Source: Lamellibrachia satsuma
Taxonomy: Eukaryota; Annelida; Polychaeta; Sabellida; Siboglinidae
Reading direction: 5' to 3'
DNA length: 64,000 nt
Assembly: GCA_033239005.1 (NCBI GenBank)
Contig: BSQZ01000005.1
Span: 14,966,001 to 15,030,000, forward strand
The position numbers were made by a program, and so were the translations under genes. Below the pieces are notes generated by a model that ran no database searches, was not told where the DNA came from, and saw only the letters and a list, made by a program, of their open reading frames with translations. Position 1 is the first letter of the stretch. Every line of letters starts with the position of its first letter. This document shows, piece by piece, positions 16,001 to 50,797 of the stretch.

Positions 16001-19000
16001 TCCTGCTGGTGACACTTATGTGACTGTCCACCACTACTTCCTCCTGCTGGTGACACTTCCTCACTAGATTATAACAGAAATGTGTTCTATTATAGTTTAC
16101 TAGTTGCCTACCTATAAATCCCATCCAAGTTCAATATTTGGAGGTAGACAGTAATCAAGATCCATGCCGGTCAATGACACAAACGCTCAATTACTTCATA
16201 TATTAATTAATTTCCCTAATACATTAAATGTTTTTGGAATTGGAAACATTAAAAATTTTCATCTTTCAGGTTTCATTTCAATGCCAAATTCTTGCAACGT
16301 TTCTGGAACCTCCTCAAGACTATCTTCCCGCAATGGAACTCTGTCACCACTTGGCTCTTCATTGGCTTGTTGTGCACCGTTTTACTGGGTATGTTGGACG
16401 TTTTATCATCTGCCAACTAACCAGGGCTTTCCCCAGTTGTTTGCACAAAGGTTCCTACAGCTGTAGTAGGTGGATAGCTTTTGTGCATTAAGTATGGTGT
16501 AACTGAGTGCCTACCAAAGGATGCTGAGTAACCAAGGTGTCCTAAGAACTTGATACAGGATTTTAAAGATTGCTGTTACATACCCGTATCTTCTATGTAT
16601 CATCTAACGTTTAACTGCCTCGTCCCTCTAGAGAGTAGATTACAAAGATGCATTTTTGTGCAGATTGTAACAACAGTACTTGGGTCATTCCATGTCAAAT
16701 CAACCAATGGTCAAACAATTTATATCTCAGAATTTGCTTGAATTTTAACCAATGAATAAGTAGCTATACCAGAGCGCTTCTGCAGAAAAACTTAGGATAT
16801 GCATGCACATTGTATTTGTAATGCCCTATAATGTGGCATTGGTTATACATAATAGATCACTGGTTAAAATGTAAGAAAATTCTGAGACTTCAACTTCTGA
16901 AATTTCCTGAAAATTAGTTGATTGGACACGGAATGACCTACTTATTTGTACGGAATGCTGGTACGTCAAACAGTTTTCCCTTCATTCTACCTGCGAGACA
17001 TTCCTGTCTGCAACTTGGTAATTTGTCATTACAATGTTTGCCTTATCATATAATGAGCAGTTCAATTGTTGCTTTGTTTCAGAGCAAGTTATCATTTACA
17101 ATGTTGGCTTGATACCGAGCAAGTTCTACAAATGCTTGGGTGACAAAGATAGAGATGCATTCCAAGCGTTGATGCTGCATGCCATTGGCTTGGTGATGGC
17201 TGTAGCGTTTGTATGTATCAACGTGTACTTCAATATTACATATTGCCACATTGTCAAAAACTTAACTTTTGCTTCATTTTGTTATCCTTGAAGGACAGAT
17301 AGCTGATCATTCGCTACCTGTGGGACTGTAACTGACCCGGGATTAGGGGAATCTGGGGATTAGGGGAATCTGGCCGTTTTCCACTGTTACTGGCCAAAAC
17401 ACCTAATGGCCATACCATGCCAGTCCTAGACAGTGACATGACCATATTAGTGGGATTAACAGTAACACCAATTCCTTTGCTATTGAATAACTGACCGTAC
17501 TTGTGAGGTGACCATATTACTAGGGTGAGGTTCTACTATATTTCTGCTTTTAACTAACGCAAGAAATCTGTAATGTGTTGTGTGCTGTTGTAGGTGATGG
17601 CGACAGACAATACATCTGTAATGTGTTGTGTGCTTTTGTAGGTGATGGCGACAGACAATACATCTGTAATGTGTTGTGTGCTGTTGTAGGTGATGGCGAC
17701 AGACAATACATCTGTAATATGTTATGTGCTGTTGTAGGTGATGGCGACAGACAATACATCTGTAATGTGTTGTGTGCTGTTGTAGGTGATGGCGACAGAC
17801 AATACATCTGTAATGTGTTGTGTGCTGTTGTAGGTGATGGCGACAGACAATACGTCTGTAATGTGTTGTGTGCTGTTGTAGGTGATGGCGACAGACAATA
17901 CATCTGTAATGTGTTGTGTGCTGTTGTAGGTGATGGCGACAGACAATACATCTGTAATGTGTTGTGTGCTGTTGTAGGTGATGGCGACAGACAATACGTC
18001 TGTAATATGTTATGTGCTGTTGTAGGTGATGGCGACAGACAATACATCTGTAATGTGTTGTGTGCTGTTGTAGGTGATGGCGACAGGCAATACATCTGTA
18101 ATGTGTTGTGTGCTGTTGTAGGTGATGGCGACAGACAATACATCTGTAATGTGTTGTGTGCTGTTGTAGGTGATGGCGACAGACAATACGTCTGTAATGT
18201 GTTGTGTGCTGTTGTAGGTGATGGCGACAGACAATACATCTGTAATGTGTTGTGTGCTGTTGTAGGTGATGGCGACAGACAATACATCTGTAATGTGTTG
18301 TGTGCTGTTGTAGGTGATGGCGACAGACAATACGTCTGTAATATGTTATGTGCTGTTGTAGGTGATGGCGACAGACAATACATCTGTAATGTGTTGTGTG
18401 CTGTTGTAGGTGATGGCGACAGACAATACATCTGTAATGTGTTGTGTGCTGTTGTAGGTGATGGCGACAGACAATACATCTGTAATATGTTATGTGCTGT
18501 TGTAGGTGATGGCAACAGACAAGTACATCTGTAATGTGTTTTATGTAACAAGTCGCAGCATAGTTACGAGACACCTCCACACAGAGTACTTCAAAGACAT
18601 CCACTACTACCAGTTGAACGTGCTGGATGATACCATTGATAATCCGTGAGTATTGGTTCTGTTGACCTGTTGTACATCAAACAGACAGTTTATTGGTATT
18701 TCTTCTGATATTAAAGGGAAACAAAAGTCATTATAAGAGTTACTAAAACATAACCATTTGTAACTACAATAAAGAATATCACACCAGGAAAAAACTTATT
18801 TCATGGAACACGCCATACTGTTAGATAACCCTACGTCACGAGTGTGATATTCTGGCAATATTCAGTCGCCAAATGAAAAAATATTTGTATACACCTATTC
18901 CTATGGTTGCCAATAAGATAGGGCTATGCTGTTTACGTCCAAACTCAAAGTTATGTAATATATTTTGGCCTTTGCTTACTAAAATAGTCCTCATTCTGAC

Positions 19001-50797: not shown

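Follow-up and report, generated by a model that had tools for sequence, protein, structure and literature searches.

How does an intact gene come to carry tandem arrays that multiply its own splice sites, and is such a gene alone in its genome? The question is raised by the ABCD4 gene of Lamellibrachia satsuma, an annelid tubeworm from the deep sea; the gene lies in the stretch of 64,000 nucleotides analyzed here (contig BSQZ01000005.1, positions 14,966,001 to 15,030,000; hereafter the window). In this gene minisatellites lie across six of the 31 splice junctions, namely four acceptors and two donors, with the exon 11 acceptor counted via diverged copies. In a sample of other genes chosen without regard to repeats, such arrays were found at about one junction in twelve.

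The gene model consists of 16 exons, numbered 2 to 17, which join to a single open frame of 595 aa and look intact; the model begins at exon 2, as the preceding exon, which should carry the start codon, could not be located. Human ABCD4 (PDB 6jbj) aligns with residues 4-591 of this frame with an E-value of 7.6e-192. The top protein match is L. satsuma ABCD4 itself (record P0001, a gene prediction), with 99% identity and 66% of the query covered; up to the point where the record departs from the gene, the two differ in two residues. The coding region and the exons that border the six arrays are:

16270..50797, forward strand: ABCD4 coding region, exons 2 to 17 (joined frame, PDB ABCD4 match, L. 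satsuma ABCD4 match)
18506..18645, forward strand: exon 4 (joined frame)
25761..25877, forward strand: exon 5 (joined frame)
31281..31426, forward strand: exon 7 (joined frame)
36903..36994, forward strand: exon 11 (joined frame)
45727..45803, forward strand: exon 16, with the ABC signature LSPGEMQ and an array at either end (joined frame, register analysis)

Arrays at six junctions of ABCD4

The sequence-only reading had placed arrays at the acceptors of exons 4, 5, 11 and 16 and at the donors of exons 7 and 16, and all six are borne out. A tandem-repeat finder (TRF) covers five of these junctions; the exon 11 acceptor was added on the basis of its diverged copies. A seventh array adjoins exon 17 but ends short of the splice site.

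17566..18540, forward strand: 48-bp array, 20 copies, exon 4 acceptor, junction 18505/18506 (TRF, register analysis)
25375..25817, forward strand: 73-bp array, 6 copies, exon 5 acceptor, junction 25760/25761 (TRF, register analysis)
31399..32331, forward strand: 37-bp array, 25 copies, exon 7 donor, junction 31426/31427 (TRF, register analysis)
36532..36902, forward strand: diverged array of about 54 bp, 5 copies, exon 11 acceptor, junction 36902/36903 (TRF, register analysis, 32-mer test)
44679..45732, forward strand: 32-bp array, 33 copies, exon 16 acceptor, junction 45726/45727 (TRF, register analysis)
45801..47548, forward strand: 58-bp array, 30 copies, exon 16 donor, junction 45803/45804 (TRF, register analysis)
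50134..50602, forward strand: 18-bp array adjoining the exon 17 acceptor, ending 4 bp upstream without the splice site (TRF)

At the acceptors of exons 4 and 5 the unit includes the 3' splice site together with about 35 nt and about 53-57 nt of exon, respectively, and the AG is intact in all of the additional copies (19 and 5). The exon 7 array starts 28 nt within the exon; its unit includes these 28 nt and the 5' splice site, and the GT is intact in 23 of 25 register copies, the real site excluded. For these three exons the TRF ends, set against the exon coordinates, give an exon overlap of 28-57 nt, much as had been read by the first observer. At exon 11 the TRF row ends at 36873, 29 bp before the exon, and diverged copies extend from there to the junction; five of the seven register copies retain the AG. 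Exon 16 is flanked on both sides. The AG is intact in 20 of 31 register copies at its acceptor, while the donor array starts 3 nt within the exon, takes about 3 nt of exon into its unit and keeps the GT in all 29 additional copies.

A 32-mer test applied to all 31 junctions found local copies matching at 22 or more of 32 positions at the acceptors of exons 4, 5, 11 and 16 and at the donor of exon 7. The exon 16 donor and the acceptors of exons 3 and 17 reached 20/32, a score at the 95th percentile of control points free of arrays; the unit at the exon 16 donor takes in no more than about 3 nt of exon. Among the other 25 junctions of the gene, no hidden duplication of at least 22/32 was detected by this test, the acceptors of exons 3 and 17 being the highest at 20. 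The sequences of ten array units were likewise compared, and none of the 45 pairs exceeded the 99th percentile of 100 shuffles. Since the units are unrelated, the arrays look like independent events, as had been proposed.

Two observations made by eye concern the surroundings of these arrays. A LINE-like fragment (long interspersed nuclear element) at 24260-25374 ends where the exon 5 array starts, and has a longer relative at about 34000-35530. In exon 16 the string CAGGTTTGA is present at both the acceptor (45724-45732) and the donor (45801-45809), the pattern that would be expected of a duplicated proto-splice site.

In-register copies with an intact dinucleotide, referred to as decoys in the following, amount to 19, 5, 5 and 20 at the acceptors of exons 4, 5, 11 and 16 and to 23 and 29 at the donors of exons 7 and 16, i.e. 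101 in total, where roughly 100 had been estimated. When each decoy was placed in the mRNA in silico, a truncated or frameshifted protein resulted for 100 of the 101. The statement that the reading frame requires the exon-proximal copy therefore holds for these 100, but not for every case as originally put: the exon 11 decoy at 36843 is in frame and adds 60 nt, equal to 20 residues. The unit of the exon 4 array is in frame as well, yet it ends in TAG; each added unit therefore brings a stop, and all 19 exon 4 decoys lead to a stop at the same residue. In the predicted L. satsuma protein the exon-edge copies are joined at exons 4, 5, 7 and 11.

ABCD4 contains 19 arrays with a period of at least 10 in 32.7 kb of intron, making up 32% of the intron sequence, and 13 of them do not span a junction. 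The number of junction-spanning arrays expected by chance is 0.56 if the first unit is placed at random, 0.84 if the arrays are collapsed to one unit and 0.97 if the random placement is applied to entire arrays, compared with five observed by TRF and six with exon 11 (p 0.003 down to 5e-5 or less). Since its striking look was the reason for choosing the gene, this p-value is post hoc and carries no evidence on the genome.

Junctions of other genes

The sampled exons were found by their protein family, using hidden Markov models (HMM) blind to repeats. Four families were used: CCT/Cpn60, an ABCD paralogue, the myosin head and kinesin. For CCT/Cpn60, 45 of 49 matches were covered by 40 stretches; two long matches that looked unspliced, one probable duplicate and one other match were left out. 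The ABCD paralogue was represented by the two of five ABCD matches that lie outside ABCD4, with junctions placed by eye. From the 77 myosin head matches 60 were used in the order of their E-values, once matches above 300 bp in length or containing two or more stops had been removed, and the first 32 of 126 kinesin matches were taken by the same rule. Each junction was placed at the best-scoring AG or GT close to where the match ends, provided that the frame stayed open, with scores from a position weight matrix (PWM) built from ABCD4. An array was counted as spanning if it had a TRF score of at least 50, a period of at least 10 and an exon overlap of no less than 3 nt. The random background consisted of 20 stretches of 10 kb (200 kb), with 3.9 arrays per 10 kb and a coverage of 13.8%.

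Arrays lay across 19 of the 235 sampled junctions, that is 8.1% (95% confidence interval 4.9-12.3%), with both sides of the exon affected (7/114 acceptors, 12/121 donors) and all four families represented: CCT 4/78, the ABCD paralogue 1/4, myosin 10/103 and kinesin 4/50. Junction-spanning arrays are thus not an oddity of ABCD4, which with 6/31 is mildly above the sample (p 0.035). The overlap of junctions with arrays compared with chance had been set beforehand as the test that could overturn the sequence-only reading. The array density of the adjoining introns predicts 3.4-7.7 spanning arrays, a figure that varies with the choice of intron reference and unit length; the reference densities rest on 18-21 intronic arrays. 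The 19 observed correspond to a 2.5 to 5.6-fold excess (exact p 0.0043 to 7e-7, over the same range of references and unit lengths), and in this sample the test does not overturn the reading.

Five alternative cut-offs for copies, overlap and score gave 3.2 to 6.1-fold (p 0.0017 to 5e-5). The myosin subset taken separately was strong (p about 6e-5); CCT and the ABCD paralogue together (5/82) were marginal, with p 0.04 against the local and 0.026 against the genome density. The position of the array edges gives a further indication: there were 11-21 edges per 10 kb within the last 45 nt of exon versus 4-11 in the intron classes out to 170 bp. In 15 of the sampled arrays the exon part took up 0.21-0.95 of the period. 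An in-register decoy with an intact dinucleotide was found in 17 of the 19 arrays (15/15 in one set and 2/4 in another) under a loose definition that asked for 60% identity or more across 18-20 nt.

Three of these junctions were inspected by eye. At one acceptor (L064) the 55-bp unit has four other copies; at one donor (L057) two further copies of a 67-bp unit include 33 nt of exon. At the ABCD-paralogue donor (L005) a 40-bp array is broken by a LINE-like insertion, which by eye resembles the family of the fragment at 24260-25374 in the window. Near misses like the one at exon 17 also occur, with arrays at 12 bp (L001), 15 bp (L067 and L087) and 9 bp (L114). Finally, on the complementary strand near position 264 of L053, upstream of a CCT acceptor, a single decoy of the exon start is preceded by its own inverted copy, and by eye the transcript could fold a hairpin over the decoy site.

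Relation to mirages and origin of the excess

Arrays of this kind have a precedent. In the available passages of two papers on amphioxus (PMC3087553, PMC3902484; both citing Canestro 2002), repeats termed 'mirages' are described for Adh3, the globins BflGb6 and BflGb9, TnC and PGBD5, where regular splicing is reportedly undisturbed; they are said to be 'possibly' more general among cephalochordates, and these passages give no frequency. As in the tubeworm, the amphioxus repeats span the exon-intron boundary, hold AG or GT in register and affect both 5' and 3' edges. The tubeworm arrays share each of these features: they cross the boundary (six in ABCD4, 19/235 in the sample), carry in-register signals (101 in ABCD4, 17/19 in the sample) and occur on both sides. 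They differ from the mirages as described in those passages in belonging to an annelid, in reaching about 33 copies, in numbering six in one gene and in having a measured frequency, 19/235, with an excess.

The closest human counterpart is the variable number tandem repeat (VNTR) in intron 18 of ABCA7. According to the parts of PMC5954066 that were available, it has a 25-bp unit with about 24 copies in the reference and abuts exon 18, its first two bases being the exon 18 splice donor. Splicing at this locus also makes use of a decoy donor in the next unit downstream, and the isoform that retains one unit is out of frame; expanded alleles raise Alzheimer risk. As far as these parts show, the layout is the same as that of the exon 16 donor array and close to that of exon 7. 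ABCA7, however, is one locus in humans for which RNA and disease data exist, whereas the tubeworm case comprises many loci, includes acceptors, often has exon in the unit and is known from DNA alone. Ordinary intronic minisatellites are a further comparison: the 13 non-spanning arrays of ABCD4 have similar periods and copy numbers, but the spanning units include the splice site and often exon.

Among the literature matches listed, judged from titles and abstract beginnings and with subscription journals mostly outside the scope, no junction-spanning arrays in annelids and no genome-wide frequency were found. The available parts of a Daphnia tandem-repeat survey, of the killifish genome and Ridgeia tubeworm genome papers, of a C. 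elegans splicing paper and of a human tandem-repeat paper held no junction data. As far as these sources go, what had been described before amounts to a few genes in lancelets and a single locus in humans. The kind is already known; the frequency, the excess, the annelid lineage and the presence of six arrays in one gene appear to be new.

We consider it very probable that the ABCD4 arrays are mirages in the amphioxus sense, i.e. tolerated duplications that expanded from the junction into the intron while the exon-edge copy stayed productive. In a genome rich in minisatellites, a short tandem duplication would now and then happen to cover a junction, and would be tolerated because the exon edge keeps one junction intact. 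The array could then grow into the intron through slippage or unequal exchange and multiply the splice site. The exon-edge copy would be the productive site, as almost every alternative in ABCD4 would yield a truncated or frameshifted protein; wrong choices would probably be avoided through exon definition or cleared by mRNA decay. We infer that the decoys are used rarely.

The sequence-only reading had offered two accounts, tolerance of such duplications or a process seeding repeats at junctions. Simple tolerance does not account for the excess, since by itself it predicts no excess over intron interiors; an excess would take either more frequent birth or longer survival of arrays at junctions. 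Our leading guess, a tentative one, is that the excess comes mainly from retention: the exon-edge copy would be fixed by selection, and anchored arrays would hence be lost less than free intronic ones. Retention is preferred over biased birth because it needs no special process.

Several results weigh against the interpretation as tolerated and retained mirages. Site strength, estimated with a small PWM from the other junctions of the gene, hardly singles out several of the real sites: 16 of 38 AGs in the exon 4 array score above the real acceptor, as do 5 of 49 at exon 5 and 7 of 18 at exon 11, and the donors of exons 7 and 16 each have copies that score equal to the real site. At these five junctions the choice of the exon edge is thus unexplained by site quality; only at the exon 16 acceptor, where the real site scores above 30 of 31 AGs, could site quality explain it. 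Retention predicts larger arrays at junctions, and the trend was non-significant in ABCD4 (p 0.06) and in the myosin flanks (p 0.08), with no significant difference in the full sample (p 0.22); array size was therefore rejected as proof of retention. The sample has weaknesses of its own. Its junctions were called with the small ABCD4-derived PWM, those of the ABCD paralogue excepted. Where no site could be called with confidence, as at 43 exon ends, the end was excluded, and exons that share a gene, as several do, do not count as independent. Weak cases make up four of the 19 arrays (1.9 copies in L053 and L128; 5 and 3 nt of exon in L109 and L154); under stricter cut-offs, 2.5 copies and an exon overlap of 8 nt, the count falls to 13 arrays, at 3.2 to 3.8-fold (p 0.0017 and 0.0007). 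Moreover, counted per base there is no excess: local copies (22/32 cut) lie at 5 of 31 ABCD4 junctions versus 34.5% of random intron points. Junctions are favoured only when arrays are counted as events, and the excess vanishes per base. We report both counts and set the point-coverage null aside in favour of event counting, because a spanning array grows only into the intron and can include a junction solely by way of its first unit, which means that counting bases over-counts large intronic arrays; others may weigh the two counts differently.

The strongest alternative to retention is that splice junctions start tandem duplications more often than other sites, for example through co-transcriptional structures, R-loops or boundary composition, and are true hotspots. 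The excess itself, at acceptors and donors alike, is what such a bias would produce. Random breakpoints, on the other hand, would be expected to give the observed spread of the exon overlap over the unit. The G-over-C skew of the coding strand in the spanning arrays (mean 0.11) does not significantly exceed that of flanks free of arrays (p 0.11) or that of intronic arrays (p 0.18), and there is thus no R-loop signature; an apparent G skew in the ten myosin arrays was non-significant in the full set, and the R-loop reading was dropped. Biased birth is possible, in our view, though rather unlikely. We regard as still more doubtful the far-reaching version, in which junctions are birth sites of tandem duplications through a process linked to transcription or splicing and position-resolved ladders at about one in twelve junctions feed new introns and isoforms.

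The arrays could also be kept for a function, the multiplied splice sites tuning ABCD4 and other genes by site competition or poison isoforms; the sequence-only reading had named slower splicing as a further possible effect. The truncated or frameshifted products of 100 of the 101 decoys are what a poison switch would require, and in ABCA7, as described in the available parts of PMC5954066, the length of the VNTR influences splicing, and alleles with an expanded array increase an isoform that misses part of a nucleotide-binding domain. Yet intronic sequence would usually run into a stop early in any frame, so that 100 of 101 need not be special, and the units differ between junctions in length, sequence and side. 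That about 8% of the sampled junctions in housekeeping and motor genes are affected fits turnover better than a gene-specific device, which makes function improbable as the cause.

We give similarly little weight to the idea that common minisatellites hit six junctions by luck in a window chosen for its look, with no genome-wide excess behind them. It would fit the post hoc nature of the ABCD4 test, the flat per-base count, the marginal CCT subset and the array coverage of the window, which at 25.9% is nearly double that of the random stretches (13.8%), but it conflicts with the repeat-blind sample, where the excess survives five other cut-offs. That the assembler collapsed or expanded the repeats is very improbable: such repeats are generally regarded as difficult to assemble, but contigs reach 34.6 Mb (279 contigs for an assembly of 735 Mb), the unit variants of the exon 4 array are interleaved (A B A C A A D...), the array of intron 13 recurs in translated form, with fewer units, in another L. 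satsuma protein record, and the same structure is present in unrelated genes on other contigs. The arrays appear real, and their exact copy numbers, as read from the assembly, are to be taken as approximate.

If arrays at about 8% of the sampled junctions are mirages, they would provide many natural experiments on how the spliceosome chooses among near-identical sites. The excess at junctions calls for an explanation; the two accounts, birth and retention, differ in predictions that can be tested. The arrays would also open a direct route to testing whether introns are gained through tandem duplication. In the available passages of PMC3087553, mirages are proposed to supply material for new introns and so to play a role in intron gain, and the Rogers model of intron gain via tandem duplication of AG/GT proto-splice sites is cited. 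The ABCD4 arrays resemble this model in that a local tandem duplication multiplies splice signals; they differ in sitting inside introns. An RdRp (RNA-dependent RNA polymerase) gene of potato is said to have gained an intron by tandem duplication.

The intron 13 array and other features of the window

Intron 13 of ABCD4 contains an array that does not touch a junction, with a 30-bp unit repeated 36 times at 40732-41813 and an open 10-aa repeat. In the L. satsuma ABCD4 record about 17 of these units are translated as the C-terminus, replacing exons 14-17. The array is hence present in a second source, and the difference between 36 and about 17 units suggests length variation. Length instability between haplotypes or somatic cells is a further trait of mirages in the amphioxus sense; the one array that could be compared for it is this one, which lies away from any junction. 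For annotation this is a warning, as the record runs into the repeat and is without exons 14-17.

Outside ABCD4 the window holds further arrays. An open frame at 1265-2190 contains a coding minisatellite of 42 bp, about 14 aa, rich in R, D and G; the same frame has a likely acceptor near 1605, and a 57-bp array ends about 12 bp upstream of it. On the complementary strand at 3976-5256 lie exons that, judged by eye from their translation, resemble an ankyrin-repeat gene, and a 19-bp array begins about 15 bp into the intron after its likely donor near 3975. At 60030-62600 there are apparent remains of a long terminal repeat (LTR) retrotransposon, recognized by eye from similar ends near 60030 and 62400 with sequence like a decayed polyprotein between them.

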